The position numbers and the translations under genes are program-made. A stretch of 64,000 bases of DNA from Deltaproteobacteria bacterium (GTDB taxonomy: Bacteria > Bdellovibrionota > UBA2394): NCBI GenBank assembly GCA_017302715.1, contig JAFLCD010000007.1, positions 62,001 to 126,000 on the forward strand, in the 5' to 3' direction. This document shows positions 12,101 to 49,209 of this stretch, piece by piece. Every line of letters begins with the position of its first letter. Position 1 is the first letter of the stretch. The notes under the pieces were generated by a model. It saw nothing but the letters and a program-made list of their open reading frames with translations, had not been told where the DNA came from and did not search any database.

Positions 12101-15100
12101 TGACTGACGTTCCCGTACACGTTCCGCCTATCGAAAAATCTCCAGACGCAACGGAGCCTGCAAGTAAATCGCTACTCATCGTGATCGTCGCCGTCGCGGG
12201 AAGTGTTCCCACCGTTGAAGTCGCGGGCGTGAATGTCGAAATCGTTGGCGCGGTATTGTCTATTGTAATAGCACTGCTTGCCGAAGAAGCGACGGATGCA
12301 TTTCCAACGACATCTGTTACAGCGGATGAATTCACCTGCGCCGTAACGGTTCCTGTTCCCGTGCAATCAGATAAATTAATCGTCGGCGTTTGACCTGAGC
12401 CACTCGTGATGCTGACGGTTCCGCAAGTCGCCGTTCCCGATGCGGTATTTACCGTGATCTCTGTATTGTCGAGAGTTCCAGAAATGGTTTCATTGTAAGT
12501 CACACCGATCGTAACGGCAGCCGCAGCAGAATTAATCGGCCCCGTGGTCGAAGGTGCCGCCAGTGTAGGTATTGGACTTGCAGAATCAATCGTATAAGTA
12601 CGACTCACCGACGATCCTGATCCAGCGTTTAAAGCCGCGTCCATCACACTGACGGGATCAAAACTAATCGTAAAAGTTTGAGTGTCAGCACAAGTTCCAA
12701 TCAATCCAAGCGTGATCACGCCTGAAGAAACAGAATTCACAGTCACCGATTTTGAAGTACAGGTTCCACTCAAAGAAAAATCTGAAATCGAAACCGAGCT
12801 CACGAGTAAATCGCTACTCATCGTGATCGTCGCCGTCGCGGGAAGTGCCGCGAAAGTTGCCGATGCGGCCGTGAAAGATGAAATAGTGGGAGCTGTATTA
12901 TCGACATTAATAATGGCGCTCGCAGATGAAACAATATTTCCGTTTCCTACCGCATCAGTGACAGCCGACGCATTCACTTGTGCTGTCACCGTTCCGGTGC
13001 CCGTGCAGTTTGAAATATTAATGGTTGGTGTTTGCGAAGATCCGCTCGTGATGCTGATTGTTCCGCAAGCGGCCGTTCCAGATGTAGCCGCCACAGTAAC
13101 TTCAGAATTTAATAAAGTTCCCGCAACTGTTTCGCTATAACTTACGCCGATCGTAAATGCTGAAGCTGTCGAGTTGAGCGGACCTGTCGTCGATGGAACG
13201 CCCAAGGTGACGACCGGTCCAGCGCCGTCGATCGTGTAAGTTCGCGTGACCACCGATCCCGTCGCAGGATTGCCAGAAGTGTCGGTGATATTGGTTGGAT
13301 CCAAACTGATGATAAAAGTATCTCCATCGGCACAGGTCGCCGAAAGTCCTAGCGTAATGATTCCGTTCAAAATCGAATTCACGGTGACCACTTTGCTCGT
13401 ACAAGTTCCACTCAAGGAAAAATCTCCTGCAGTGACAGAGCCGGCGAGCAAATCGCTGCTGGTGACGATTGTTGCAGAAGATGAAATCGCTTGAACCGTT
13501 GCGGTTGCCGGCGTGAAAGTTGAAACAGTCGGAGGAGTATTATCGACAGAAATAACGGAGCTCGCAGATGAAGCGACAGAATTATTTCCGACAGCATCTA
13601 CAACAGCTGCCGCATTGATCGTCGCTGTCACGGTTCCGGTTCCTGTGCAATTTGAAATATTAATCGTCGGTGTTTGAGAAGAACCGCTCGTGATGCTGAC
13701 CGTTCCACAGGTCGCTGTTCCAGAAACCGTGTTCACCGTTACTTCTGAATTGGATAAAGTTCCCGAAATAGTTTCGTTATAAGTGACTCCGATCGTCACC
13801 GCCGAAGCAGAAGAGTTCACCGGTCCTGTCGTTGAAGGTGCCGCCAGTGTAGGAATGGGACCCGAAGAGTCGACCACATACGTACGACTGACAGAACCAC
13901 CGGTGCCGACGTTGCCGGCGTCGTCGGTGACGTTAGCTGGATCAAAACTAATCGTGAAAGTTTGCCCGTTTGCACAAGTACCACCGACGCCCAGTGTGAT
14001 CACTCCCATCGAAACTGAAAGCACACTCACCGCTTTTCCCGTGCACGTTCCACTGAGCGAAAAATCTCCAGAGGTTACAGAGCCCGCGAGCAAATCGCTA
14101 CTCAACGTAATCGTCGCTGTCGCAGGAAGTGCAGACAAAGTTGCAGATGCTGGAGTGAAACTCGAAAGTGTGGGTGAAGTATTATCCACGGTAATGCTCG
14201 CACTTGCGGCCGAAACAGTACTCGCGTTTCCGTAAACGTCGGTGACGGCGGCGGCATTGATAGTGGCTGTGACCGTTCCGGAGCCGGTACAATTTGAAAG
14301 ATTAATAATCGGCGTTTGCGAAGATCCACTGGTAATCGTCACCGTTGCGCAAGTAGCTGTTCCAGTTGCGGTCGTAACTGTCACCTCTGAACTCGAGAGC
14401 GTTCCTGAGATAGCTTCGCTGTAACTTACGCCAATCGTCACTGCAGGATTTGAAGAGCTGACTGGGCCTGTCGTAGAAGGAGCCGCCAGAGTGGGCGTTG
14501 GTCCGATCGAATCGATAGTGTAAGTGCGACTGACGGTGGCTCCTGTTCCAACATTCGTCGATGAATCTGTCACAGCGGCTGGATCAAAACTGACAGTAAA
14601 AGTTTGAGTGTCGGCACAAGTTGCGGTGAGGCCAAGTGTGATCACTCCTGTCACAACAGAATTCACGGTCACAGATTGTCCGGTGCACGTTCCGCCTAAA
14701 GAAAAATCACTCGCATCGACGGTCGAGCCAAGCAAATCACTACTCATCGTCAAGGTGGCTGTTGACGGCAAAGTGGCTACGATCGAACTTGCCGGAGTAA
14801 AACTTGAAACAGTCGGAGATGTTAAATCGCAGGATTCAGTTGTGAAAGTATAAGTGCTTCCAGAAAACGGGGCGCCATTTTTAAATTCAATCGCAGAAGT
14901 TAAACAAATATTGTACGTCGTATCGCACGTGAGAGTTTCTGCAGGATCCAAGCTGATTTGTCGGCCGGTGGTGCTGACGGTGGTATCGATTCGATTCGCA
15001 ATATTACAAGCCGTCGGTCTGTACGATGCAGCAAGACTCGCTGCATGAAGAGTCGAAGAGCTTCCCGAACCGTGTGTGATGTAAGCACTTGAATTATTAA

Positions 15101-15308
15101 TTGAACTGACAAGAAGCGCTGAATTAAAATTAATAACTAAATTTTCATTGAGGCCTACAGAATTTCCAACACTGTTACCTTGAAAACTTCCGGTACCCAC
15201 CGAAGCAATATCAGCAGAGTCAACGGTATTATAAGCACACGAACTTAAATGCGCCAAAAAAAGTGGAAGCAAAGCCGTTAATATTCTTGATGAAAAACTT
15301 CCACGCAT
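9153..15308 (-). CDS. Giant lipoprotein with alternating Ig-like modules and a seven-blade FG-GAP propeller
   Basis: About 2051 residues. The ATG at 15308 is chosen because it directly starts a lipoprotein signal (RILTALLPLFLAHLSSC); a TTG 57 bases upstream keeps the frame but hides the signal. After a ~140-residue head there are eight A modules (start PTxSxFTPA, then LPATATITMSSDLL, two Cys in SGTCTG and GTCAD) interleaved with six B modules (PTLAAPSTTGP, then YNETISGT, two Cys in TATC and SNCTG). The C-terminal ~390 residues carry seven FG-GAP/integrin-alpha repeats with calcium-type loops such as GDIDSDGRDDYIIG. The protein is probably displayed at the outer-membrane surface as an adhesin or prey/host contact protein; that function is inferred. 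A Cys-rich secreted protein is encoded just upstream. Confidence 0.85.
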   Translation of the reverse strand: MRGSFSSRILTALLPLFLAHLSSCAYNTVDSADIASVGTGSFQGNSVGNSVGLNENLVINFNSALLVSSINNSSAYITHGSGSSSTLHAASLAASYRPTACNIANRIDTTVSTTGRQISLDPAETLTCDTTYNICLTSAIEFKNGAPFSGSTYTFTTESCDLTSPTVSSFTPASSIVATLPSTATLTMSSDLLGSTVDASDFSLGGTCTGQSVTVNSVVTGVITLGLTATCADTQTFTVSFDPAAVTDSSTNVGTGATVSRTYTIDSIGPTPTLAAPSTTGPVSSSNPAVTIGVSYSEAISGTLSSSEVTVTTATGTATCATVTITSGSSQTPIINLSNCTGSGTVTATINAAAVTDVYGNASTVSAASASITVDNTSPTLSSFTPASATLSALPATATITLSSDLLAGSVTSGDFSLSGTCTGKAVSVLSVSMGVITLGVGGTCANGQTFTISFDPANVTDDAGNVGTGGSVSRTYVVDSSGPIPTLAAPSTTGPVNSSASAVTIGVTYNETISGTLSNSEVTVNTVSGTATCGTVSITSGSSQTPTINISNCTGTGTVTATINAAAVVDAVGNNSVASSASSVISVDNTPPTVSTFTPATATVQAISSSATIVTSSDLLAGSVTAGDFSLSGTCTSKVVTVNSILNGIITLGLSATCADGDTFIISLDPTNITDTSGNPATGSVVTRTYTIDGAGPVVTLGVPSTTGPLNSTASAFTIGVSYSETVAGTLLNSEVTVAATSGTAACGTISITSGSSQTPTINISNCTGTGTVTAQVNASAVTDAVGNGNIVSSASAIINVDNTAPTISSFTAASATFAALPATATITMSSDLLVSSVSISDFSLSGTCTSKSVTVNSVSSGVITLGLIGTCADTQTFTISFDPVSVMDAALNAGSGSSVSRTYTIDSASPIPTLAAPSTTGPINSAAAAVTIGVTYNETISGTLDNTEITVNTASGTATCGTVSITSGSGQTPTINLSDCTGTGTVTAQVNSSAVTDVVGNASVASSASSAITIDNTAPTISTFTPATSTVGTLPATATITMSSDLLAGSVASGDFSIGGTCTGTSVTVNSVVTGVITLGLTGTCADTQTFILSFDPSNVTDTALNAGSGGSVSRTYTIDAAGPVPTLAAPSTTGPINSAAAAVTIGVTYNETISGTLLNSEITVNTASGTATCGTVSITSGSSQTPTINISNCTGTGTVTVQVNVSAVTDIYSNNSLVSSASTAIDIDNTSPTISTFTPATSTVGSLPATATITMSSDLLGSSVVDTDFSLSGTCTGKSVTVDSVVAGVITLGLTGTCADTQTFTVSLDPSNVTDTALNAGTGGAESRTYTIDSAGPIPSLAAPSSTGPINSAAADVTIDVTYNETVSGTLLNSEITVNTASGTATCGTVSITNGSSQTPTINLSNCTGTGTVTAQVNASAVTDAYSNNSVVSAASSAITIDNTAPTISTFTPATSTVGSLPATATITMSSDLLAGSVTAGDFSLSGTCTGKSVTVDSVVAGVITLGLTGTCADTQTFTVSLDPSNVTDTALNAGSGSAVSRTYTIDSSGPSLVSVSPDTSARVTLPTVTITLDQAVDPASVDVSDFGIGGTCTGTSVTVDSASGTVITITLLGTCADQQTFVLSFNTSSFQDIYGNNGTSSSTNYTYTKGYFRQTRLIEGTQDFEHLGTAVTFIGDIDSDGRDDYIIGSPDLDGAGTARGRATVYSGVNASVIFVINGAIDNENLGQVISAAGDFDHDGTPDFMIGEPLYGGTGRVIIFSGADAGQLDVLVGDEAGAQFGASLGRVGDANLDNYSDVIIGAPYHDAGSPGSDRGRAYVFSGFDGSVMYTISGAVDQGYLGYSVAGAGDVNLDGNPDFIIGQPSDGSTGNFGRAFVYSGLDGAPLHSLTGAASEDGFGSSVAGIGDITGDSHADFVVGVSRHDDGATTDAGAVSVYNGDTGSVIYSIIGTTASDFLGLGVFLAGDVDGDGTNDFAATNYAGVTSSVRIWSGDDGSLIQTLTGSLGFNYSYSYGDYDGDSKPDLLIGERLHNNASGTAQGAARLYHNDR
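10345..14830 (-). repeat. Intragenic tandem A-B module array
   Basis: This part of the giant lipoprotein gene is a tandem array with a period of about 640 bases (one A plus one B module, about 214 codons). Units near the 3' end are almost identical at DNA level: 10699-10754 and 11341-11396 share 56 identical bases. The 5' units are more diverged. Such a gradient points to recent unit duplication at the C-terminal side of the array. Long antisense reading frames across it arise from the repeats. Confidence 0.85.
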
Positions 15309-15431
15309 TCCTCTTATTTTCTCAAGATTTTGACTCGGGGGCGGCACCCCACGAGTCTGCGGCAAAGAAGTTTCTTAGCTGCGTGGCACTAATAATTTAT
15401 GAACGTCTAAGACGCTTCACAGAAAATTTTG

Positions 15432-32310: not shown

Positions 32311-32352
32311 TTGCGGGGATTGGATTTGAACCAATGACCTTCGGGTTATGAG
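32311..32352 (-). repeat. Left attachment repeat (tRNA-fMet 3' half)
   Basis: A 42-base exact copy of the right repeat. On the minus strand it reads as anticodon loop, anticodon 3' stem, variable region, T-arm and acceptor 3' strand of an initiator tRNA. It has no CCA and no matching 5' half to its right, so it is an attachment-site remnant, not a working tRNA. Confidence 0.8.
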
Positions 32353-32472
32353 TCTGAGATTAGCGTTTTTGCAACTCGCTGAATTTATTCAAAAACATTA
32401 ATAATATCATTGGCCTACACTGCTTTTAGATTGCGGATTTATGAGGGCTATTTCGGTGGTTTTCGGACCCTG

Positions 32473-32490
32473 GTGGACCCTTTGTGGACC
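32473..32490 (+). repeat. GTGGACC box pair, left end
   Basis: Two GTGGACC boxes start at 32473 and 32484, exactly 11 bases apart, about 120 bases inside the left repeat. The right end of the element has the same pair with the same 11-base spacing and orientation. They are candidate arm-type integrase binding sites. Confidence 0.5.
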
Positions 32491-32555
32491 TTTTTCAGCT
32501 CGTTTTTCTCCTATCAAATCAGGCATTTTCGAAGAGACTTAGGCATATTGTTTAA

Positions 32556-32573
32556 ATTACACTTTAGTGTAAT
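32556..32573. promoter_or_regulatory. Palindromic operator of toxin-antitoxin pair
   Basis: ATTACACT-TT-AGTGTAAT is an 18-base perfect palindrome 13 bases upstream of the toxin start. Type II antitoxins usually bind such sites to repress their own operon. Confidence 0.55.
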
Positions 32574-32586
32574 ATGGAGGTGAAGA

Positions 32587-32907
32587 TTGAAAGATATACG
32601 AAGGTACAAGACCGACAGTGGTCGAATACCTTTTGATGAATGGATCTCTGAAATTGATGATACTTCGCAAGCTCGCATCGACGCTTACATACAAAGAGTG
32701 GCACTCGGAGCAGCGAAGAAGAATACGAAGCCAGTTGGCAGCGGAGTTTTCGAGATCAAACTCGATTTCGGTCCAGGGTACAGAGTGTATTTTGGCGAAG
32801 TCGGCAGAACAATGATTCTGCTTTTGATTGGCGGCGATAAAGGCACTCAATCAAAAGATATCGAAAAGGCAAAAGAATACTGGAGAGACTACAATGCCGA
32901 GGACTGA
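32587..32907 (+). CDS. HigB/RelE-like addiction-module toxin
   Basis: A 106-residue toxin of the phage-derived Gp49/HigB-type RelE superfamily, which cleave mRNA at the ribosome. It has the family N-terminus (RRYKTDSGRIPFDEWISEI), a core KLDFGPGYRVYFGEVG with the catalytic-type Arg/Tyr, and the C-terminal GGDKGTQSKDIEKAKEYW. The start is TTG, chosen because GGAGG lies at good spacing and no ATG is in frame. The antitoxin gene overlaps its end by 14 bases. An 18-base palindrome precedes it. Confidence 0.85.
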   Translation: MKDIRRYKTDSGRIPFDEWISEIDDTSQARIDAYIQRVALGAAKKNTKPVGSGVFEIKLDFGPGYRVYFGEVGRTMILLLIGGDKGTQSKDIEKAKEYWRDYNAED

Positions 32908-33187
32908 AAGCTACAACGAAGAAGTTAGTAAAAAATTAAGAAACGCAAAATACGCACAAACCTTTATCGAAGCTTTGATGGAAGGCGATGAAGGTCTTAG
33001 TGCAGAAGATGCCCTTCGTCACACTATTCAAATCATGGGCATTAAAGAATTTTCTAAATTAGCGAAAATTGAAATGCCTCGAGTGGTTGAATTTACGAAG
33101 AAGAAACGGAATTTTAAGCCAGAGACGATTGATTTGTTACTGAAGCCCTTTCGCATGAGAACGAGAATGGTGCTGGAGAGGGCGTAA
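32894..33187 (+). CDS. HigA-like antitoxin
   Basis: A 97-residue cognate antitoxin of the putative addiction-module antidote family (HTH type). It starts at the ATG at 32894, inside the toxin's end. Residues ESYNEEVSKKLRNAKYAQTF and EGLSAEDALRHTIQIMGIKEF (the latter shown shortened: AEDALRHTIQIMG) are typical. A related but solitary antitoxin lies at 48898. It likely binds the upstream palindrome and neutralises the toxin. Confidence 0.8.
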   Translation: MPRTESYNEEVSKKLRNAKYAQTFIEALMEGDEGLSAEDALRHTIQIMGIKEFSKLAKIEMPRVVEFTKKKRNFKPETIDLLLKPFRMRTRMVLERA

Positions 33188-33205
33188 TTAGCTGACGTTG
33201 CGCAT

Positions 33206-35125
33206 TCATTCGTCAAGCAGTCCCATTTCACAAAGAAATCTAGACGGCTTCTTTTGCCATCCAAAATATTTTTTTGCGTAACTCAAAGATAAAGTATCTT
33301 GAGTTCTGGTAATTGCAACAAAACAGTTTCGCCTCTCTTCCTGCATTTCTTTACTTCCGTCACCTTCCTTTACACTTTGAAAGGACGGAATTTGATCTTC
33401 AACCATCCCGATCAGATATACATGGCTAAATTCCATTCCCTTTGAACTATGAATTGTCAAACAACGAACGGCGTTCTCAGGAATTGCAGGTGTCTTTGGA
33501 GTTAAGTCTAGCTCTTGAAGAAACGCATGGAGCGTAAGATCATCCAATCCAATTTTGTTTTCAATTTCCTGTTGAAGTTTTTTCCATAAGGAAGCCTCTT
33601 CCACGTAGCTAGAAAAAACTTCTTCCTTTGCGCCGCCGCTAGCTTTTTCTATCTGATCAGCCCACTTAAAAGCTTCCTCAATAAAAAATATAAACTGGTT
33701 GTGATCCAATAACGGCTTTCGCACGACATCTAGAAATTTTTTTGTAATTTCCTCAATCGAATTCTCTTTCGAAGAAATTTCAAACCATGCTCGCAAATAG
33801 TCATCTCCATTTACGACAGCTTGGGAAATAATCTTATCTGCTGGAATGTCCACGCCTTCCAATTTAAAAAAGGCTCGACATAGTCTGCGAAGTTGAATTT
33901 TATCTGATCTTGAGCTGGCGAGACGAAGCATTGAGTCGAGCCATTGTAATGGACCCGATTCGAAATCACTTTTCCTCAAAACTACGTGCGCTGGAATTTG
34001 TTTTTTGTTTAATTCAACAGCAGCAGCTTCTAACAGTTTCGACGTTCGCGACAATACGGCACATTCCGAATACTCCGAAGATCCTCGATTTTTGATATCT
34101 TGCACTAGCCATGAAATTTCATCCTCGAACGATTCGAATTTTTTTAGTGAGACATCCCCTGATGACAGCTCAGTTTTCATTGCCACGAGAGGCTTCTTCC
34201 CAACTGCTCGATCTCGATTGTTTTGAATTAGACTATTTGCCAACTCTATAACTTTTGGTGGACAGCGATAGTTGGCCGGCAGTTGAATAACCTCCATCTT
34301 ATAATCTTTAATTAATTCTTCAAGCCTCTGTGGATTCGCTCCATTCCATTCATAAATTATCTGATCATCATCAGCGACCACGAATAGATTTGGAAGCCTG
34401 TCATTAATTAGATATTTTAAAACCTTATATTGAGAAAAATTAGTATCTTGAAATTCATCTACGCAAACATAAGGATAAACAGTTTGAATCTGTTTGCAAA
34501 CCTGAGTCTTTTCTCTTAGTAATTTTTCCGTAAAAAATATTATTGTTGGAAAATCGACTTTATTCTCTTTTAACAGTCTCTCTGTGTAACCTGAATATAG
34601 GCGACGTACTTTTTCTTCGATCTCCGGCTTATTAACCCACTTAAATATTTCGGAATCACTCACTGAATTTGCAATTAATCGATCAACAACTTTTAAAAGC
34701 CCGATCTGTTTATCACTGATATCGTTTTCATCAATTCGAATCGATTTAATAACATCATTGAAAAGCTGCTCTCTATCCAGGTCTTGCGTTACAATTTGAA
34801 AGTCTGGCTTTAATCCAATAAATCCCCCATATTGCCTTAAAATTTCTGTGCAGAAAGAATGAAACGTACACAGATTGGCTCTTTTATTGCCTATTGATCC
34901 GAGCACTTTATCAATCCGCTCTCTCATTTCTGTTGCAGCTTTATTAGTGAAGGTAAGGCCAAGTATTCTAAAATTGTCTTGAGGTGTTTCGCTTATAATT
35001 TTAGCGACTCTGAGGGTTAAGACTTTTGTCTTCCCTGATCCTGGTCCAGCCAACACAAGTAAAGAACCCTCTCCCCAATTTACTGCATACTTTTGGTTTT
35101 CATTTAAACCGCTTAAATCAATCAT
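33206..35125 (-). CDS. gajB: Gabija-type UvrD-like helicase GajB
   Basis: A 639-residue superfamily-1A helicase with all core motifs. Q-motif: LNENQKYAV. Motif I (Walker A): AGPGSGKT. Motif II: VCVDEFQDT. Motif III: ADDDQIIYEWNGA. Motif IV region: LPANYRCPP. Motif V: LTIHSSKGMEF. Motif VI: VAITRTQDTL. It is longer than the best-known GajB (about 500 residues). It is directly preceded by an OLD-family nuclease gene, the defining Gabija pair. The ATG at 35125 has GGAG at good spacing and overlaps the gajA stop by 8 bases, so the two are coupled. Confidence 0.85.
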   Translation of the reverse strand: MIDLSGLNENQKYAVNWGEGSLLVLAGPGSGKTKVLTLRVAKIISETPQDNFRILGLTFTNKAATEMRERIDKVLGSIGNKRANLCTFHSFCTEILRQYGGFIGLKPDFQIVTQDLDREQLFNDVIKSIRIDENDISDKQIGLLKVVDRLIANSVSDSEIFKWVNKPEIEEKVRRLYSGYTERLLKENKVDFPTIIFFTEKLLREKTQVCKQIQTVYPYVCVDEFQDTNFSQYKVLKYLINDRLPNLFVVADDDQIIYEWNGANPQRLEELIKDYKMEVIQLPANYRCPPKVIELANSLIQNNRDRAVGKKPLVAMKTELSSGDVSLKKFESFEDEISWLVQDIKNRGSSEYSECAVLSRTSKLLEAAAVELNKKQIPAHVVLRKSDFESGPLQWLDSMLRLASSRSDKIQLRRLCRAFFKLEGVDIPADKIISQAVVNGDDYLRAWFEISSKENSIEEITKKFLDVVRKPLLDHNQFIFFIEEAFKWADQIEKASGGAKEEVFSSYVEEASLWKKLQQEIENKIGLDDLTLHAFLQELDLTPKTPAIPENAVRCLTIHSSKGMEFSHVYLIGMVEDQIPSFQSVKEGDGSKEMQEERRNCFVAITRTQDTLSLSYAKKYFGWQKKPSRFLCEMGLLDE

Positions 35126-36839
35126 GGTTGTCTCCGGAAATTTTGAAAGCAGATTGCAAACATTTTGCAATTAACTCTGGGACAGCAGACTGACCAGTAG
35201 TCTCAATCCGTGTCATTACATCTAATGCGGCACCTGGTTTTGAATATTTACCTAGCGCACTGATAACTTGCTTCCAGTAACCTGGATCAGTGGCCTTCAA
35301 AGTGATGCTCGATTTTTTTTGTTCTGAAATAAAAGGTATATAAATCGTGCCAAAACCTTGGTCGCACAAATATTCTTCAATCGTATGAAATTCGTGCTGA
35401 AAAATTAAATCTGTTTCCTTTTGGCCATCTAAATATTTCTGAGCCTTCTGTTTATCGGCCGCACCTTGATTCGTATCGCCATCAAGAAATGTTACCCATT
35501 TTATACCAAGATTTTTTGCAGCCTTTAGATAAGTTTCTAAGCCTGCCCCGTTTTGATAAGTAATGATTCGAATGCCCCAACGATCTAAATCGATATTCAA
35601 TATTTTGGCGCTTTCTCTTAGAATTACGTCCTCGGTTTCACCTTCGGCAATAACCCAGCAATTAGAGAAAATCAACTCGCCGCGACTGCGCCTAACATGA
35701 AAATCAAATTTTCTTTTCTCTTCAGCATCAAAAAGATCTTCAGGAATTGAACCAACTTTAACCTCATTATCTTTTCGGTATAGCCTTCGAATCGAGTGAA
35801 GTGGGACTTCGGAAATAAGGTCCCCAGAATGAGTAGATATAATTTTTTGTCCTTCAAGGGTATCTAATGTTTTCCATAAAGTTCTAATGGCACATGGATG
35901 AAGATGAGCTTCGGGTTCTTCCAATGCTAAAATTGGATAAGTATTTTTATAGTCTGCTTCAAGCAGCCTTGATTTAAGAAAGGCATCAAAGAGTAGCAGT
36001 ACTGCGATGCTTTGAGTGCCTTCGCCATGCCGTCCAATCGGTAGTTTTGCTCCAGTGGATGAGCGAATATTAACTTGAGCCTTACTTAATAAATCAAAAA
36101 CCTTTCCTGAAACTGCTTCAATCGTAATTGCTTTTGCTCCACCAACTCGCAATAAACTGCTCATTTTGGATAGATGCCGAACTACATGTTCAAATGACTC
36201 GTGAGCATTTACAACTTGTTCATTAAGCGATGACAAAGCTTGTTCGATTTCAGTCTTTGTCTCGGCTGACATATTTTCACTCCTAATGAAAGGACTCCAA
36301 AATGACGCATGCTTTGAAAATTCACGGCCAGCATCTCTCAGCGCAGAAAGATAAAAAATTGGAAACAAATGCTGAATTAAAGATAGGGCATTTGGATTTG
36401 CCGCCTTGCCAGTCATCGTGTTTCCTGAAAAATCTAGAAATGCCCAAGATTGAACGAATTCCTTTGTCGTTTGATCAAAGCCACTTGTAATACGAAGTTT
36501 AATTTCTCGCTTATCATCATCGCGAAGACTGATGACATCCGCTGCAGCCCTCACAAATTCGGCAGGCCAAGCATCCATGTTAGACTCGACAAAATAAAGA
36601 ATTATGGAAATCGGTGGAGCAGTCGAAGGATCTTTTAATTCGCTTTCAAAATGAAAATCATACTCTTCAAAGGTATGACCTTTCCTGTTCTTAATCCTCT
36701 CAAGGCAATTTCGTAATGCATGTAATATCGACGTCTTTCCAGTATTATTTTCACCGACGAGGACAGTTTCTTTGGCTAAATCCAAATCCAAAGATTTAAT
36801 GCCCCTGTAATTCTTAATTTCAATTCTGGATAACTGCAT
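35118..36839 (-). CDS. gajA: Gabija-type OLD nuclease GajA (ATPase-TOPRIM)
   Basis: A 573-residue protein. An N-terminal ABC-type ATPase has Walker A GENNTGKTS (residues 29-37), a signature-like GRHGEGTQS and Walker B ILALEEPEAHLHP (near 295-310). A C-terminal TOPRIM domain has AEGETEDVIL (near 398) and FLDGDTN (near 450). ATPase plus TOPRIM is the OLD architecture, and the size agrees with characterised GajA (close to 580). In Gabija, GajA is the sensing endonuclease that assembles with GajB. It lies one base after a small HTH gene and is coupled to gajB. The gene order HTH-gajA-gajB suggests local control. Confidence 0.88.
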   Translation of the reverse strand: MQLSRIEIKNYRGIKSLDLDLAKETVLVGENNTGKTSILHALRNCLERIKNRKGHTFEEYDFHFESELKDPSTAPPISIILYFVESNMDAWPAEFVRAAADVISLRDDDKREIKLRITSGFDQTTKEFVQSWAFLDFSGNTMTGKAANPNALSLIQHLFPIFYLSALRDAGREFSKHASFWSPFIRSENMSAETKTEIEQALSSLNEQVVNAHESFEHVVRHLSKMSSLLRVGGAKAITIEAVSGKVFDLLSKAQVNIRSSTGAKLPIGRHGEGTQSIAVLLLFDAFLKSRLLEADYKNTYPILALEEPEAHLHPCAIRTLWKTLDTLEGQKIISTHSGDLISEVPLHSIRRLYRKDNEVKVGSIPEDLFDAEEKRKFDFHVRRSRGELIFSNCWVIAEGETEDVILRESAKILNIDLDRWGIRIITYQNGAGLETYLKAAKNLGIKWVTFLDGDTNQGAADKQKAQKYLDGQKETDLIFQHEFHTIEEYLCDQGFGTIYIPFISEQKKSSITLKATDPGYWKQVISALGKYSKPGAALDVMTRIETTGQSAVPELIAKCLQSAFKISGDNHD

Positions 36840-36840
36840 A

Positions 36841-37071
36841 CTATCTATTTCGCGGACCTAGTTTTTGTTTAAAGATTTTTAGATCGTCTGCTGCTTTTCC
36901 GGATTTCACCCACATATCAACTTCAGATACTTTAAATCGCCAAAGCTTTCCGATTCGGTGCGATGGAATAGATTCTTCTTCAAGACGTCGGTAAATTGTC
37001 TCTTTGGAAACTCCTAAGTGTTTAGAAATTTCCTCAACTCCAAGCCAATTCTCAGTTTTCGGTTTAGTCAT
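36841..37071 (-). CDS. HTH/excisionase-like regulator of the Gabija operon
   Basis: A 76-residue helix-turn-helix protein of the excisionase (MerR-like) type. WLGVEEISKHLGVSKETIYR forms the HTH and HRIGKLWRFKVSEVDMWV the wing. A stop codon one base before the gajA ATG puts it in the same operon. It may regulate gajA/gajB or act as excisionase for the element. A different HTH protein lies next to the integrase, so regulation is the more likely role here. A GGAG site lies about ten bases before the ATG. Confidence 0.75.
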   Translation of the reverse strand: MTKPKTENWLGVEEISKHLGVSKETIYRRLEEESIPSHRIGKLWRFKVSEVDMWVKSGKAADDLKIFKQKLGPRNR

Positions 37072-37441
37072 AAATTAAAACTCCAATAGAGATTTTGAAA
37101 TGACAATCAATGACAAGTAAAGACAATTAATTACCTGCCAAAGTGTCTTATAAGAAAATGATCAAGAATCATGGCATTTCGACTCGTCGAAATTTGAAAT
37201 TCGAGTTGTCGAAACTCGAATGTTTTCGGCTCATCAAATTTAATATTTCACTGAACGATACGAAATTTCACGAATTGATACGGCCCGCACAATTAATTGT
37301 ATTGATTTGTGAAATTTTAATTTCTTCAATTACTTCAGAAAATTAATTTCATTTTTGCGTGTACCCGATCACTTGGCATGCTTTTGGCTAAGTACCCTCC
37401 TGGTGTTGTGAACAGAAACAAATAAACTAGGAGTAATAGTT
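37072..37441. other. Repeat-rich divergent intergenic region
   Basis: A 370-base region between the defence operon (left) and the mobility genes (right). It has three tandem 10-base repeats, TGACAATCAA/TGACAAGTAA/AGACAATTAA (37101-37130); a hairpin ATTTCGA-CTCG-TCGAAAT (37176-37193); a second, ATTCGAGTT-GTCGA-AACTCGAAT (37199-37221); the palindrome ACAATTAATTGT (37290-37301); and an outer inverted repeat AAATTTCAC (37263)/GTGAAATTT (37309). Divergent promoters, a replication origin or an oriT could lie here. There are no genes. Confidence 0.6.
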
Positions 37442-38953
37442 GTGAATCAAAACAGTAGTCCTCAGCAACAGATCTCAATTGGTCAGGCGTTAGGCATTGC
37501 CGGCTTAGCGGGTACGATCTTTATAGCGACGAAAGCCGCAGAGCGATTTCATATGGGCATTCAAGATGCCATTATTGCAATCACGATAAGTGTCGGCGTG
37601 ATTGGCGCTGCCAGCATGGGAGCGATGATGATTTTTAAGCGAAAGCCCAAGAAGGCGAAATCATCGGGAGCGGAAATAGTTCTCGCGAAAGCGATTCATC
37701 AGGAATGGTGGAAAGCCGATCAAGCTTTACCGATTGGAATGCAAGACTTTCGTCACATCCTTGTGACGGGTACAACCGGCTCTGGGAAATCAACCTTTAT
37801 CCGGCGCTTTATTGAGCAGATTCTCAGCAAGAAAAAGAATTTTCTCTATATCGACTTTAAAGGTGAGAGGGACGATCTCGATCAGATTGGAAAAATTTGT
37901 AAGGAGCAAGGTGGTTCCGATCCACTTCAGGTGTTCGACATTTCGAATTCGGAGAAGTGCATAACCTTCAATCCACTTACCGTCTTTGAGAGCGTTGAAG
38001 AAACAGTAGGCTTTATTTCTTCCGTATTCTTCGACGAAAATTCGAATGAATACTATCAATCCGAAGCAGAACGATTCCTTCGGCACTCGATCAACCTTTT
38101 AGATGCAGCCAGTGAAACCCGCACCTTCGAGAGCATTCAGAAAATTTATTACGAATCGACGGCTAGATCCTCGTTATTGAAAGCTTCCAAAAAATCTGCA
38201 GGCCTTATTGTGGCGGACTATGAAACCTTCTTTACTAAAGAGTTCGAAGCTCTCTCGCCGAGAGATAGATCAGAGCGGTACTCGGGCCTCATGTCGATCC
38301 TGGCCGCGTTTAACTCAAACGAATTAAAGCGCATCTTTAGTCCAGAAGGTGAAAGCGAGCTAAAACTTGCAAACATCTTTGAAGCGAAGAGAAATCTGAT
38401 CATTCGTGTACCCGGGGAAGTCTTCGGAGATCTCTCGGCGAGAATCGTAAAAGCCTTTATCAAAATTATTCCAGTGCTGCTGGTAAAGCGTCGCGAAGAG
38501 CGGAATCGAAACGAATACTGCCTACTTTTCGACGAAGGCTGCTCTTACATGGACGAAACAATGATCGAAATTCTAAAGAAAGCTGGATCGGCCAATGTGA
38601 AGATGCTGATCACCCGAATGTGTGATGCTGACTTTCAAGCAAAGGATCCATCCTTTCTTGGCAGAATGCTTTCATCATTCAACTTGTTCGTTTGCTTTCA
38701 AACGATGGACCCAGACACTCGGGATACGCTCGCAAGAATATCCATGACAATTCAAGATACGAAAGCAACGTCTCGGTGGAGTCAGGGTGCCGATACAGGA
38801 GAAGCGTCGGTTCGAGATGTTCAGCGCTTTCGAATTCATCCGTCAGATTTCGGAACTCTCAAAACCGGCGAATGCTTTATGATTGCTCCGACTCTTAATC
38901 TTTATCAGAAAGTGCGCGTTCTTCCTCCTGAAAGTACGAGGGTGACCGCATGA
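37442..38953 (+). CDS. VirD4/TraD-like DNA-transfer coupling ATPase
   Basis: A 503-residue protein with two N-terminal membrane helices (about 13-30 and 38-58) and a cytosolic FtsK/VirD4-type motor: Walker A LVTGTTGSGKSTF (near 103-115), FLYIDFKGERDD, and Walker B LLFDEGCSYMD (near 360). The late segment NLFVCFQTMDPDTRDTLARI is like TraD/TraG coupling proteins. It would link transferred DNA to a type IV secretion channel supplied by another element, since no channel genes are near. The start is GTG with an AGGAG site. It overlaps the next gene by 4 bases (ATGA). Confidence 0.8.
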   Translation: MNQNSSPQQQISIGQALGIAGLAGTIFIATKAAERFHMGIQDAIIAITISVGVIGAASMGAMMIFKRKPKKAKSSGAEIVLAKAIHQEWWKADQALPIGMQDFRHILVTGTTGSGKSTFIRRFIEQILSKKKNFLYIDFKGERDDLDQIGKICKEQGGSDPLQVFDISNSEKCITFNPLTVFESVEETVGFISSVFFDENSNEYYQSEAERFLRHSINLLDAASETRTFESIQKIYYESTARSSLLKASKKSAGLIVADYETFFTKEFEALSPRDRSERYSGLMSILAAFNSNELKRIFSPEGESELKLANIFEAKRNLIIRVPGEVFGDLSARIVKAFIKIIPVLLVKRREERNRNEYCLLFDEGCSYMDETMIEILKKAGSANVKMLITRMCDADFQAKDPSFLGRMLSSFNLFVCFQTMDPDTRDTLARISMTIQDTKATSRWSQGADTGEASVRDVQRFRIHPSDFGTLKTGECFMIAPTLNLYQKVRVLPPESTRVTA

Positions 38954-39720
38954 GTTACGCTACGGACATTCTCGATTATCTTTCGAGATGGAAGCTTGCA
39001 GACACGGTAAATCTTGCAGCTGGTGCATTCCCGAATAAAGTGATCAACCAGAATACTTATTCGGTGACGCTGAAGCGTTTACGCAGAGACAAACTTATCG
39101 CAAGTCATCGACTCGGGGATCTTACGGTACATTTCGATCATGCGATCAGAAATCGCTCCAACTATGTCGCCCGCATACCGAAGACAGAACGACGAAGTTT
39201 CTTATCTCGGTCTGGCATAGACCATCATTTGAAAATTCAAAGACTCTCTAACCAGCTTGAAAAACTTTTAATAGGTTTTAAATTCTCTCCAAATCCAAAT
39301 GACAAAACGCTTTCAACGACCGATGGGAGGGTCGGGGAAAGCGGACGAAAGTTTATTCCAGATCTAATTGCGGAGCCTACTGACCAGCTAGATCGATTGA
39401 TATTTGTAGAAGTAGAGCGAACTTTAAAGGCAGATCGCAGATACTTTGAAAAATGGGAAGCCTATGAAACCGATCAAAACCTCTTTGCTTGTTTGTATGT
39501 TGTTTACGACCGGGTCATAGAATTGCAACTCAAAGAAAAACTAAGGCGTTACTTTTCGGGAGCGAGATTCGGATCGAGTAGTTTCGCCATTGGTATTCTG
39601 CAGGCTGACAAAATCGAGGAAGATAAAAGTCGCGCAGTTGTGACTCGTTTTGAAAAATCAAAGGAGAGTGAAGTGACGCTCTATGATTTCTTTCCACGGC
39701 ATTTAATAAGTACCGGATAA
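38950..39720 (+). CDS. Replic_Relax-like (replication/relaxation) protein
   Basis: A 256-residue protein. The N-terminal winged-helix region (ADTVNLAAGAFPNKVINQNT, LKRLRRDKLIASHRLG) is followed by a nuclease-like central part with PDLIAEPTDQLDRLIFVEVERTL (here shortened: PDLIAEP, FVEVERTL), which resembles the Replic_Relax family described for plasmid replication and DNA relaxation. With the coupling ATPase overlapping it by 4 bases it probably takes part in DNA processing for transfer, maybe in place of a standard relaxase. The family assignment is from pattern only. Confidence 0.6.
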   Translation: MSYATDILDYLSRWKLADTVNLAAGAFPNKVINQNTYSVTLKRLRRDKLIASHRLGDLTVHFDHAIRNRSNYVARIPKTERRSFLSRSGIDHHLKIQRLSNQLEKLLIGFKFSPNPNDKTLSTTDGRVGESGRKFIPDLIAEPTDQLDRLIFVEVERTLKADRRYFEKWEAYETDQNLFACLYVVYDRVIELQLKEKLRRYFSGARFGSSSFAIGILQADKIEEDKSRAVVTRFEKSKESEVTLYDFFPRHLISTG

Positions 39721-39769
39721 TGCGCCCACGATGTGCCGGAGTGATTTTAAAATATGAATGTTAATCGAC

Positions 39770-39853
39770 GCTTCCGAACTGACTCCCCTCTCTCAACCAA
39801 CACACTAAAGGTTGTTTGCCCTAAAGGGACGAGACGGGAGTCAGTTCGGAAGC
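39770..39853. repeat. Large nested inverted repeat (candidate oriT or regulatory RNA)
   Basis: An 18-base perfect inverted repeat, GCTTCCGAACTGACTCCC (39770-39787) and its complement (39836-39853). The 48-base inside has two small hairpins: CAACC...GGTTG (39794-39815) and CCC-TAAA-GGG (39819-39828). It forms a three- or four-way junction in single-stranded DNA or RNA. It lies between the Replic_Relax and HTH genes, where transfer origins are often found. No T-run follows, so a terminator is less likely. Confidence 0.6.
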
Positions 39854-39893
39854 TGGTATGAGATTTAATTGAAAGTAATAGGAAGTAGGAGTT

Positions 39894-40127
39894 ATGAATG
39901 AAGATGCACTGATTGATGATAATCAGAAGTTCTTTGAAAATTTGCCGGATTTGATAAGAGCCGAAAACCTCGCCAGTCTAATGGGATTGTCTGTGAAGAC
40001 GATTTACGATTGGCGATATCGAGCGCGAATAAGAAGAGTGCCTGCAGAATTGTTTTTAAAATTCCGCGGCAAGCTTTTTGTTCGCACCAAAGTTCTAAAA
40101 CAGTGGATGGCCTCTGAATGCTCTTAA
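39894..40127 (+). CDS. Small HTH protein, probable excisionase
   Basis: A 77-residue protein with an excisionase-type HTH: ENLASLMGLSVKTIYDWRYR and the wing KLFVRTKVLKQWM. It has an AGGAG ribosome site and is 18 bases before the integrase gene. Its position suggests it helps the integrase excise the element. The two HTH proteins of the element share the fold but not close sequence. Confidence 0.75.
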   Translation: MNEDALIDDNQKFFENLPDLIRAENLASLMGLSVKTIYDWRYRARIRRVPAELFLKFRGKLFVRTKVLKQWMASECS

Positions 40128-40145
40128 GGGAGCAGAGAGGAATCT

Positions 40146-41294
40146 ATGAGTATCAAGAAAATCATAACAAGCATCGGACCGCGCTGGGAAGTTCGCTACC
40201 GAATTGGTGGCCGCGACTCTAAACGGGTAAAGCGATTGTTTGAAACTCGGCGCGACGCCGAAAGTCATTATGATGATTGGCGTAAACGCAAACGAGATTT
40301 GAAACTTTCGGGAAGTACGATTCGAGACTTTGAAGAAACGACCTTTGAACAAGAGGCCAAGCATTGGCTCCTTGTCCAAGCGAAGACTTTTAGTCCGGGT
40401 CATCTGAAACGAGTGGAAAGAATTCTTTTAGAGTTATTTCCGCGTTACGGAAGACTTTCTCCTCAAAAGTTTCATCCAGGCTTTTTGTCGACAATTCAGA
40501 TGGAGCAACTCGCGCTTAAGCTTGCACATGCAACTGTGAATCGAAAGCTTGAAGTGATTCGGGCCGTTCTGAATTTTTCTGCAAAACAGCGGCGCATTCC
40601 GTATAGTCCAACTCTTGGGTACACGAAGCTTCGTGAGGTGAGAGAAGATGTTTCGTTTTGGGAACGAAAAGATGCAGAAACCTTTTTAGCTTTTGTGAGT
40701 GAGAAGTATCCTGCAGGTTCTACGAAGCGATGGATCTACGTTGTTTATCTTTTGGCTTTAAACTCTGGCCTAAGAGCCGGAGAAATTTGGGGCCTCAAGT
40801 ATGAGGACATCAAACAAGATGGAGAGGTTTTACACATTCAACGTCAGTTTGATCGGGTACATCGTGACTTCAGAACGACGAAAGGAAAAACATCCCGACT
40901 TGTTCCATGTAACGAGAATCTTTTTCAAGAGCTGATGGCGCTAAAGCGAACCGAAGACCAACCCGAAACCATTTTCTCTGATCGAGATAATGGAAATCCA
41001 ATAGATCACGATAATTTTCGCAAACGGAATTTTGAAATGGATCTAGCGGAATGGGGAGGAAAGAAAATTCGCTTTCATGATCTTCGCCATACAGCTGCGA
41101 CTTTGATGATCGCCGATAACTTGGACATTAAAACCGTTCAAGAAATCTGCGGACACAAAGATATCAAAACGACCCTGAACTACTGTCACCTTCTCGGTGA
41201 AAAGATCAAACAAGCTGCCCGAACGTTTTCTATAAAACCTTCAGTGGCGGCACCGACCACTAAACCAATTCTTCGACTTATTAAAAACGGCTAA
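40146..41294 (+). CDS. Tyrosine recombinase (integrase)
   Basis: A 382-residue phage-type integrase. An N-terminal arm/SAM-like region (residues 1-165) is followed by the catalytic domain with the R-K-H-R-H-Y set: Arg in LNSGLRAGEIW (near 212), His-x-x-Arg in FHDLRHTAAT (near 317-320), His in CGHKDIKTT and the nucleophile Tyr in LNYCHL. It lies 141 bases before the right attachment repeat, the usual place for the integrase of a tRNA-targeted element. A GAGGA ribosome site precedes it. Confidence 0.92.
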   Translation: MSIKKIITSIGPRWEVRYRIGGRDSKRVKRLFETRRDAESHYDDWRKRKRDLKLSGSTIRDFEETTFEQEAKHWLLVQAKTFSPGHLKRVERILLELFPRYGRLSPQKFHPGFLSTIQMEQLALKLAHATVNRKLEVIRAVLNFSAKQRRIPYSPTLGYTKLREVREDVSFWERKDAETFLAFVSEKYPAGSTKRWIYVVYLLALNSGLRAGEIWGLKYEDIKQDGEVLHIQRQFDRVHRDFRTTKGKTSRLVPCNENLFQELMALKRTEDQPETIFSDRDNGNPIDHDNFRKRNFEMDLAEWGGKKIRFHDLRHTAATLMIADNLDIKTVQEICGHKDIKTTLNYCHLLGEKIKQAARTFSIKPSVAAPTTKPILRLIKNG

Positions 41295-41366
41295 CTCAGA
41301 TTCCCTTAAGTCTTTGTTCAATTCTTTCTGATGATTTCGGGATTTTCTGGAATTATTCGGAGTGGT

Positions 41367-41384
41367 GTGGACCTTTTGTGGACC
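41367..41384 (+). repeat. GTGGACC box pair, right end
   Basis: GTGGACC at 41367 and again at 41378, 11 bases apart, about 50 bases inside the right repeat. They match the left-end pair in sequence, orientation and spacing. Probably integrase arm sites. Confidence 0.5.
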
Positions 41385-41398
41385 CTTCAGAGTTCCCA

Positions 41399-41428
41399 CA
41401 AAAAAGAAAAGGCCCCGTAGGGGCCTTA
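41399..41428 (-). terminator. Rho-independent terminator after tRNA-like gene
   Basis: Reading on the minus strand: AAGGCCCC-TAC-GGGGCCTT, a perfect 8-bp stem, followed by TTCTTTTTT. It starts 5 bases after the end of the tRNA-like sequence, just as for a natural tRNA transcription unit. Confidence 0.85.
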
Positions 41429-41432
41429 AAAT

Positions 41433-41507
41433 TGGTTGCGGGGATTGGATTTGAACCAATGACCTTCGGGTTATGAGCCCGAGAACCCGACGTGTTCAAC
41501 GTCCGCA
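41433..41507 (-). tRNA. Initiator tRNA-Met(CAT)-like, possibly degenerate
   Basis: The 3' half is intact: anticodon arm TCGGG-CTCATAA-CCCGA, T-arm ATTGG-TTCAAAT-CCAAT, acceptor CCCCGCA, discriminator A, and CCA. This is the initiator form, since it reads like the well-known fMet 3' half. The 5' half is unusual: TGCGGAC pairs with CCCCGCA only at five of seven positions, and the D-arm is GAAC-ACGTCGG-GTTC. It is therefore either a divergent tRNA or a tRNA whose 5' half was replaced by integration. It is followed by a terminator. The anticodon CAT would be at the usual place. Confidence 0.5.
41436..41477 (-). repeat. Right attachment repeat
   Basis: The second 42-base copy; it extends outward into CCA and a terminator on the left and a tRNA-like 5' half on the right. 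This is the integrase-proximal junction. Confidence 0.8.
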
Positions 41508-43746: not shown

Positions 43747-44604
43747 ATGGAATTTATTACTCGATCACTATCCCCGCAAGAAAGCCGTATTGTTCTGCAT
43801 TTAACAGAGCGAGGCTCTCGAACTATTGAACGCCAGAATATTATTGATCTCCTTAAAGTCGCTCCTCAAGCGGCCGATCACATCATTCGTTCCCTTCGCC
43901 GAAAAGGTTGGTTGGAAAGAGCCAGTTGGGGAAAATATCTACTCATTCCCCCGGAGCAAGGACCAGATGCTCTTGGTGAGCACAATCTTCTGGCACTGGC
44001 GAGTCGCATCTCCAATCCCTATTATATCGGCTATGGGACGGCAGCGACTCATTATGGATTTACTACGCAACATAGAAATGTCATTTGGCTGATCACCCCC
44101 GTACGCCTTCGAGATCGTCACTTGAACGACACAGAAGTTCACATCGTAAACCTCGTTTCGAAAAAATTCTTCGGCTTCCAGAGTGTGGATATATTTGGAT
44201 ATCCAGTAATGATGTCGGATCGAGAAAAAACAGTAATTGATTGTGCTGATCACCCCGAAAGAGCTGGAGGCCCTGGAGAAGTCGCTATGATTTTGGCTAC
44301 TGCAAGTCATCGCCTCGACTGGGAAAAGACAAAAAATTATCTCGATCAAATTGACTCAACACCTCTTATCCGTCGGTTCGGCTGGCTTATTGATCATGTC
44401 GGAGCAGAAATGCCATCAGAAATTCGCGAGCATTTGCTTAAAAAAGCTAGTCGAGGTCCCAGAACGATTTTTGGAAATAAGAAAATACTTCGGCAAGCGT
44501 TCGCAGAAGACGATACATGGCGCATCAGTCTTCATATTTCAAAAGAAGAACTTCACGGAAGTGCAAAAATGGCGCGGCGACAACCAATGAAGCGAGGAAC
44601 CTAA
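43747..44604 (+). CDS. abiEi: AbiEi-type antitoxin
   Basis: A 285-residue type IV antitoxin. The N-terminal winged helix (NIIDLLKVAPQAADHIIRSL, RRKGWLERASWGKYLL) would bind the upstream inverted repeats. The C-terminal antitoxin domain has YYIGYGTAATHYGFTTQ and the typical end segment EKTVIDCADHPERAGG. It is followed two bases later by the AbiEii toxin gene. AbiE aborts phage infection through the toxin's nucleotidyltransferase; the antitoxin counteracts it without direct binding in characterised cases. Confidence 0.9.
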   Translation: MEFITRSLSPQESRIVLHLTERGSRTIERQNIIDLLKVAPQAADHIIRSLRRKGWLERASWGKYLLIPPEQGPDALGEHNLLALASRISNPYYIGYGTAATHYGFTTQHRNVIWLITPVRLRDRHLNDTEVHIVNLVSKKFFGFQSVDIFGYPVMMSDREKTVIDCADHPERAGGPGEVAMILATASHRLDWEKTKNYLDQIDSTPLIRRFGWLIDHVGAEMPSEIREHLLKKASRGPRTIFGNKKILRQAFAEDDTWRISLHISKEELHGSAKMARRQPMKRGT

Positions 44605-44606
44605 TT

Positions 44607-45524
44607 ATGCTCACCCAACCTCAAGTTCAAAGATACGCAGCAGAATCCGGCCTTCGAGATTTGATGATCGTAGAAAAGGAAGTCGTTTTAACTTATCTCC
44701 TTCAGCTTCTAGCGGAATCTCACATATTGAAAAAACTTGCTTTCAAAGGCGGAACTTGTCTGCGCAAAATGATTTTGGGAAGTCATGGTCGATTTTCAAC
44801 GGACCTTGATTTTACTTCTCTGGAAGAACATGAACATGAAGACATCCTCCTTGATATGATGAAAGGCTTTGAAAAACCTTTTCATGGTATTCAATTCCAA
44901 ATTCCAGACAATTCTTACTACGAAACTCAAGACGGCTTATCCTGGGGAGTAAATCCTACTTACTCTCACTCATGGAACGCGAGCGGGGCGAGTGAAATCA
45001 AATTACAAATCAGCCGGCGAGAGCCACCAACTTTACCCACTGAAAAAAGAAGACAGTGTGAGCAAAGTTATTTTGAGTTTCTCCCATTTGTTCCATCAGA
45101 AATAGTCTGCCTCGCGCTGCCCGAAATGATCGCGGAAAAGATTCGCGCCTGTTATCAACGTAATAAAGCTCGTGACATCTACGACTTGAGCATTTTTTCA
45201 GCTCGCCCCTTGAATCACGCGCTTATTCGACGGCTTGTGGTACTTAAACTATGGCAAGCGCGGGATCATTTTAATCCTCAACAACTCATGAAAAAATTTG
45301 AAGATGGATCATCCTTCGATTGGAATGATCTAGCTCAGCTTGTCCGACGAACACAGACCATTGACGGTCAGAAAATTGCAAAGGATTGTCTGAACGGACT
45401 GCGCTTTCTAGCAGAATTTACTGACGATGAACGTGTTTTAGCCAATGATCCCCACCAACGAGAACGGGTTTTATGGAAAAAGCTATGCACGAATCTTCCT
45501 GCGGTAACCATGACTCCAATTTAG
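44607..45524 (+). CDS. abiEii: AbiEii-type nucleotidyltransferase toxin
   Basis: A 305-residue toxin of the AbiEii/AbiGii family. The ATG at 44607 gives the family start (LTQPQVQRYAAESGLRDLMI) and a 2-base gap after abiEi. The catalytic G-G-T...D-x-D is present: FKGGTCLRKMI (near residues 49-60) and TDLDFTSLEEH (near 72-82). The further segment EKIRACYQRNKARDIYDL is typical. The likely action is transfer of nucleotides to a tRNA or similar acceptor that stops growth. Confidence 0.9.
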   Translation: MLTQPQVQRYAAESGLRDLMIVEKEVVLTYLLQLLAESHILKKLAFKGGTCLRKMILGSHGRFSTDLDFTSLEEHEHEDILLDMMKGFEKPFHGIQFQIPDNSYYETQDGLSWGVNPTYSHSWNASGASEIKLQISRREPPTLPTEKRRQCEQSYFEFLPFVPSEIVCLALPEMIAEKIRACYQRNKARDIYDLSIFSARPLNHALIRRLVVLKLWQARDHFNPQQLMKKFEDGSSFDWNDLAQLVRRTQTIDGQKIAKDCLNGLRFLAEFTDDERVLANDPHQRERVLWKKLCTNLPAVTMTPI

Positions 45525-48795: not shown

Positions 48796-48872
48796 GTGGG
48801 CGAAGGAGTTGAGCGCAAGGTTGAATACCTGGCATTAGCCGATGGTTCGCAGAATGGTTGGACAGCCTATAA
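48796..48872 (+). pseudogene. HigB/RelE-like toxin remnant
   Basis: The first frame reads VEYLALADGS, then a change of frame continues as RWFAEWLDSL and a stop. Together they give the start of a RelE/HigB toxin (compare its intact homologue at 32587: IPFDEWI). The rest of the toxin is missing, and the antitoxin ATG lies 26 bases further. A frameshift and deletion have removed the toxin. Confidence 0.65.
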
Positions 48873-48897
48873 GAAGCAAAGGCTCTTTGGAGGACTT

Positions 48898-49209
48898 ATG
48901 AGACGAACAAGAAGTTACGATGAAGAATTGAGCAAAGAATTACGAGATCCAGAATATGCTTATGAATTTATTCTCGGCCTGATGGAGGGGGAAGGCGCTC
49001 TTACTCTTGAGGATGCTCTTCGTCGAACCATTGAAGTAATGGGCGTAAAAGAATTCTGCGCTCTTGCAAAATCTAAAAGAGTTTCGTTTCATGAATCGAA
49101 TGTTGTCGATTTTCTCAAAGGCAAACGTAATCCAAAAGCCGACACGCTTAATAGTTATTTAAAACCTTGGAAGCTCAAGGCAAAACTTACACTTTCTTCT
49201 GCTGCTTAA
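48898..49209 (+). CDS. Solitary HigA-like antitoxin
   Basis: A 103-residue antitoxin homologous to that at 32894: RTRSYDEELSKELRDPEYAY, LTLEDALRRTIEVMGVKEF. The ATG at 48898 has GGAGG upstream (TTTGGAGGACTT). Only a remnant of its toxin precedes it, so it may be an orphan that cross-protects against related toxins or regulates the palindrome ahead of it. It overlaps the convergent CDF gene by 23 bases. Confidence 0.75.
   Translation: MRRTRSYDEELSKELRDPEYAYEFILGLMEGEGALTLEDALRRTIEVMGVKEFCALAKSKRVSFHESNVVDFLKGKRNPKADTLNSYLKPWKLKAKLTLSSAA

Follow-up and report, generated by a model that had tools for sequence, protein, structure and literature searches.

A small winged-HTH gene and a putative TTGTC operator at the head of a Gabija operon

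How defence operons stay quiet until they are needed is largely an open question. It is raised by a Gabija operon in the 64,000-nucleotide stretch of Deltaproteobacteria DNA analysed here (the window), where a gene for a small helix-turn-helix (HTH) protein stands ahead of the two Gabija genes. The operon lies on the minus strand in the order HTH gene (36841-37071, 76 aa), gajA (35118-36839, 573 aa, an ABC ATPase plus Toprim nuclease of the OLD family) and gajB (33206-35125, 639 aa, a UvrD-like helicase). The HTH stop is separated from gajA by a 1-base gap and gajA overlaps gajB by 8 bases. GajB starts at the ATG at 35125; a mechanically assigned TTG start would give 654 aa. These gene calls, coordinates and junctions had been given by an earlier sequence-only reading and were all found correct with ORFs and HMMs.

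The PADLOC search proposed by that reading matched both Gabija models end to end. GajA aligned to PDLC00094 over aa 1-569 of 573 with 721 bits, and GajB to PDLC00114 over its full length with 859 bits. Pfam assigned AAA_15 and OLD-like_TOPRIM to GajA, and UvrD-helicase and UvrD_C to GajB. Both hallmarks of Gabija are present, the ABC ATPase with Toprim in GajA and a UvrD/Rep-like GajB adjoining gajA. Solved GajA structures align to the window protein over residues 1-456, with the Toprim acidic motif (E399 and D453/D455) matched. Judged from sequence, this is an ordinary Gabija pair of a known clade in the usual gene order, and anti-phage activity is predicted. The helicase had been described as longer than the well-studied GajB. 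This holds with respect to the B. cereus protein, of which the residues run to 494 (PMC10681800), but not as an oddity: GajB of 28 close relatives has a median length of 636 aa (range 623-668), so that the window helicase is not unusually long and unusual GajB length was ruled out.

The HTH gene had been taken as an added Gabija part that defines a variant. GajA loci for comparison were collected by an alignment query of genome contigs (80 loci), and three gajAB-type pairs from plasmids and one locus from the phylum were added. A single-sequence GajA query of genome contigs and viral contigs gave no match. In the phylum, such GajA proteins are rare: just 2 of the 369 genomes encode one, and the second is only 30% identical. 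Phages yielded one match, at 25%. Co-occurrence was assessed wherever 150 bp or more were available upstream of gajA, which held for 79 loci. A profile search revealed a member of the HTH family adjoining gajA at 0 of these 79 other gajAB loci; the sole match at that place, in locus L005, scored a negligible 12.6 bits and falls in a gene annotated as a recombinase. On this basis the HTH protein was rejected as a Gabija component, and the claim of a variant did not survive the neighbourhood survey that had been suggested for it. The regulator gene at the head is what distinguishes the window operon from the others, and this HTH was seen ahead of Gabija once only, in the window; no other Gabija locus surveyed has a transcriptional regulator from this family. 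As a separate observation, gajA at L108, L110, L114, L117, L149, L151, L154, L156 and L157 lies directly behind a gene of about 370-420 aa that resembles a type I restriction-modification (R-M) specificity subunit, a resemblance read only from its size and the start of its sequence.

What kind of protein does the first gene encode? A Pfam search of the 76-aa product gave HTH matches only (HTH_17, E 6e-13) and no WYL domain, and TIGR01764 'excise' was matched as well. The nearest named family is MAD1 of the MADS system, itself a small HTH protein that belongs to a defence system, but the window protein reaches 56.8 bits against NCBIfam MADS1 (NF047737), under the cut-off of 80, and no MADS operon was recognised in the window. 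Its AlphaFold model (pLDDT 77) is a winged helix. The best Foldseek matches of this 76-aa model include the excisionase RdfS (8DGL, the best match), BldC-DNA and RacA, with high probability and weak E-values (0.02-0.08); for BldC the E-value was 0.07, also weak, the probability 1.00 and the TM score by target 0.67-0.78. Most likely, from sequence and predicted fold, the protein is a small winged-HTH regulator that is excisionase/BldC-like, related to MAD1 and devoid of a sensor domain. Regulator families that recur at various defence systems, or upstream of them, have been described, namely the WYL proteins BrxR/CapW, and CapK-CapS (PMC9122601, PMC9122588, PMC13373217). These differ from the bare 76-aa winged HTH of the window in their WYL or kinase/STAS parts.

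Close matches to the HTH gene occur at 65 places in 54 of the 369 genomes of the phylum, window included. The genes behind 60 of the other places were read and representatives were named by PADLOC and Pfam. A gene recognised, by similarity to these named proteins, as a defence gene was found within the next three genes for 51 of these 60 close relatives, a figure that is descriptive and not predictive because the very loci being scored also supplied the partner labels. Scored with the same labels, the distant HTH_17 relatives that served as control had such a gene at 1 of 19 loci; several of them precede ORFs of about 350-390 aa, which is integrase-sized. The partners of the 60 were type I R-M (20), type III R-M (10), DISARM/SNF2 or DUF499-DUF1156 (8) and BREX (4), the remainder being IIG, PD-Lambda-5, Lamassu, IetAS, one PADLOC candidate system and methylases. 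Plasmids of other phyla carry HTH genes whose products are 38-49% identical to that of the window, with the same placement, directly before R-M, DISARM-type and SNF2-type operons; they differ in that no TTGTC repeats (see below) were seen upstream of them, and no description of their function turned up in the literature searched. The HTH gene thus stands as a general leader before many defence operons and is neither Gabija-specific nor stray. A tree of the family, in which the partner system switched 19 times across 30 labelled rows and 1 of 33 inner branches was well supported, was left out as evidence because it is poorly resolved.

A putative operator made up of TTGTC repeats, spaced at a pitch of 10 bp, is present on the minus strand at 37095-37134 (core 37101-37126, TTGTCTTTACTTGTCATTGATTGTCA). 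It precedes the HTH start codon by 30-55 bp; a repeat search of the window returned three copies with spacings of 10 and 10. An EM motif fitted to 51 regions upstream of HTH relatives, from which the window was left out, gave GTaTTTAaTTGTaTTTGCTTGTCAT with a log-likelihood of 570 versus 93-101 in shuffled sets. Conservation was 0.85 bit per motif column versus 0.09 and 0.20 in the flanks. At 37095-37134 of the window this model scored 32.8 and 31.7 bits, which places the site among the top scorers overall; the next best position elsewhere in the 64 kb reached 10.0 bits, and the best of 1.5 million positions in Gabija loci 20.7 bits. A pattern search of the window also matched the operator, with a chance expectation of 0.03. 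The exact pattern TTGTMNTTNNTTGTCA is present in 111 of the 369 genomes, and lone matches elsewhere are probably due to chance because the reversed control pattern was likewise found in many; 17 pattern matches sit 30-80 bp upstream of HTH matches, at 15 of the 65 loci, which is a tiny share of the searched sequence. The conserved operator falls inside 37072-37441, the region that had been flagged for a promoter test, and the proposal that the HTH protein is a regulator is most likely right on these grounds. Between the operator and the neighbouring TraD-like gene, at 37178-37220, two 21-bp near-repeats were noticed, each near-palindromic (TTCGACTCGTCGAA; ATTCGAGTT-GTCGA-AACTCGAAT), possibly an oriT or a second regulatory site.

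In 27 relatives the second repeat occupies the position of the -35 hexamer, and a -10-like hexamer follows exactly 17 bp away (TTGTCA, 17 bp, a TCTAAT-like -10). The match to -10 peaks at this spacing, with a mean of 4.5 of 6 versus 1.2-3.0 at other spacings. This placement points to autorepression. The motif may partly be the promoter itself. The overlap holds for about half of the relatives; in the others, window included, the start codon is closer and the promoter less clear, and a sigma-70 scan of 36800-37500 gave no convincing site.

Two described regulators bear on the function of such an arrangement. BldC, which controls Streptomyces development, has 68 residues and no sensor domain; it binds head to tail on AATT-based direct repeats spaced by one turn of the helix (PMC5859096). 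The window protein shares with it the small winged HTH without a sensor domain, the repeats about one helical turn apart and perhaps, from the predicted model, the fold, whereas the repeat itself, TTGTC, is different. RptR, a proven repressor, is the very small product of the gene that opens a type I R-M island operon in E. coli; three direct repeats precede its start codon by 31-58 bp, its site consists of TAGCTA palindromes in 9-bp repeats, and it is mainly tied to type I R-M (PMC12255303). It resembles the window protein in its tiny size, in the place of its gene at the head of a defence operon and in the direct repeats upstream, but it differs in fold, as its authors describe, and in site: by eye, no TAGCTA palindromes were found in 37072-37260. 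No relation between the two proteins appears from a PDB search, which may not have covered the RptR structure 9R2Z: no chain matched the window HTH protein below E 0.25. 9R2Z was absent from the best 50 Foldseek rows for the model. Gabija is known, and so are leader regulators common to many defence systems (BrxR/CapW, CapK-CapS, RptR). In the open-access literature searched, with most subscription journals outside its scope, this HTH family and its operator were not found described, and literature on mad1 of MADS, regulators in Gabija operons and excisionase-like R-M regulators contained nothing on the family.

We propose that the Gabija pair of the window lies behind a portable cassette of HTH gene and operator, which represses its own promoter by acting head to tail on the TTGTC repeats, and give this reading a probability of about 0.72. 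The HTH protein would polymerise head to tail along the 10-bp repeats across its own promoter, as BldC does; this is proposed because its predicted fold may resemble that of BldC. Once bound it would repress the promoter, so that the protein would limit its own synthesis and Gabija would be kept low. Gabija would be switched on where the repressor is missing, for instance when the island that carries it enters a new cell, or by loss of the repressor during infection. Entry into a repressor-free cell and repressor loss in infection are reasonable guesses at the trigger, and inducible Gabija, as had been suggested earlier, is plausible. DNA binding by the protein, repression over activation and the trigger are all points that we infer.

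The HTH protein might instead be an activator that is needed to turn Gabija on. MerR-like proteins are often activators, and repeats at such a distance could recruit polymerase. Activation is conceivable for the window copy in particular, because its -35 and -10 boxes are not clear. Still, we consider it unlikely: the operator overlaps the core promoter in relatives, in 27 of which it sits on an otherwise good promoter, and the small leader regulator RptR, which shares this layout, acts as a repressor (PMC12255303).

It could also be argued that the HTH gene is a leftover of a former type I R-M operon, with no present effect on Gabija. Type I R-M is the commonest partner of the family (20 of 60), and several related gajA genes stand directly behind the type I R-M-subunit-like genes recognised by size and sequence start only. 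Against this, gene and operator are both intact in the window, the gene lies 1 base from gajA and the operator score is among the highest of all, which makes a mere remnant improbable.

The operon is part of an integrated island of about 9.1 kb (32311-41477), which is bounded by exact 42-bp att repeats at 32311-32352 and 41436-41477. The repeat is the 3' part of the tRNA-Met gene that forms the integration site (41433-41507, minus strand, identified with ARAGORN). All further island genes are on the plus strand. A HigB/HigA-like toxin-antitoxin pair (32587-33187) is convergent cargo: the toxin gene (32587-32907) matches Gp49 at E 7e-7 and TIGR02683 with 103 bits, and the antitoxin, probably starting at the ATG at 32894, was called from its position and from a paralogue of 48% identity that lies outside the island at 48796-49209. 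On the other side of the operon lie genes for a TraD/VirD4-like coupling ATPase (37442-38953; DUF87/FtsK/T4SS-DNA_transf, SXT_TraD), a replication-relaxation/MobC-like protein (38950-39720; weak NCBIfam MobC, E 0.005), a second HTH_17 protein that is probably an excisionase (39894-40127; HTH_17 at E 4e-5, under the curated cut-off) and, 18 bp further on, a tyrosine integrase (40146-41294; Phage_integrase, E 4e-26). At a cut-off of E 1e-40, relatives of the coupling ATPase, 41-49% identical, were found in the same family of genomes only, one of them within a run of transfer genes. In locus L243, from a sister genus, a TraG-like ATPase, the coupling ATPase, a MobC-like protein at the corresponding place (27% identity, E 3e-19) and an integrase 55% identical to that of the window belong to a run of genes ending at tRNA-Met; its transfer genes beyond the two ATPases were identified only by reading. 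Within 32311-41477 no mating-pair genes were recognised. Because of the shared ATPase, MobC-like protein, integrase and tRNA-Met site, the window island looks, at the sequence level, like a reduced, mobilisable relative of the L243 element that carries defence cargo. Just outside it, at 43747-45524, an AbiEi/AbiEii toxin-antitoxin pair was observed.

The presence of an island raises the question whether the HTH protein is its excisionase, a recombination directionality factor merely located beside gajA. The match to RdfS and the TIGR01764 hit would agree with this, as would the location on an integrated element. We regard it as very unlikely, since the close family precedes defence operons while it is several distant relatives that precede integrase-sized ORFs, the island has its separate HTH_17 protein before the integrase, and the operator is placed in the operon promoter and not at the att sites. 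Finally, a plain Gabija pair with a chance neighbour would fit the 0 of 79 other loci but is hardly credible given the conserved operator and the strong link of the HTH family to defence operons.

Beyond the window, the proposed autorepressing cassette may have a wider role. Tentatively, and with somewhat less than even confidence, the family could be an undescribed group of bare BldC/excisionase-like autoregulators with tandem TTGTC operators that provides, across the phylum, an exchangeable control cassette to some ten kinds of defence system unrelated to one another, Gabija being one client. If so, genomes with two or three such operons could have them tied into one defence regulon. In genome G130 three HTH-led operons were found (L068, L090 and L097, with type III R-M, BREX and PD-Lambda-5, respectively), each with the repeat motif upstream, and a shared regulon of these three is possible. 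A tiny regulator with a readable operator before many systems offers a direct way to test the silencing of defence operons: the TTGTC operator lends itself to searches, to mutation and to use in front of a reporter, and multi-operon genomes allow cross-control to be tested.

The same HTH family also heads operons with no or generic matches (L057, L079, L084, L094, L103, L104 and L105), which are candidates for new defence systems. At L103-L105 a 1030-aa AAA protein and a mechanosensitive-channel protein are encoded behind the HTH gene, and at L094 a PD-(D/E)XK protein with UvrD. Elsewhere in the window, at 9153-15365 on the minus strand, lies the gene for a protein of 2070 aa in which bacterial Ig-like domains are repeated and an FG-GAP part forms the C-terminus; the local G+C there is near 0.50 versus about 0.40 around it.
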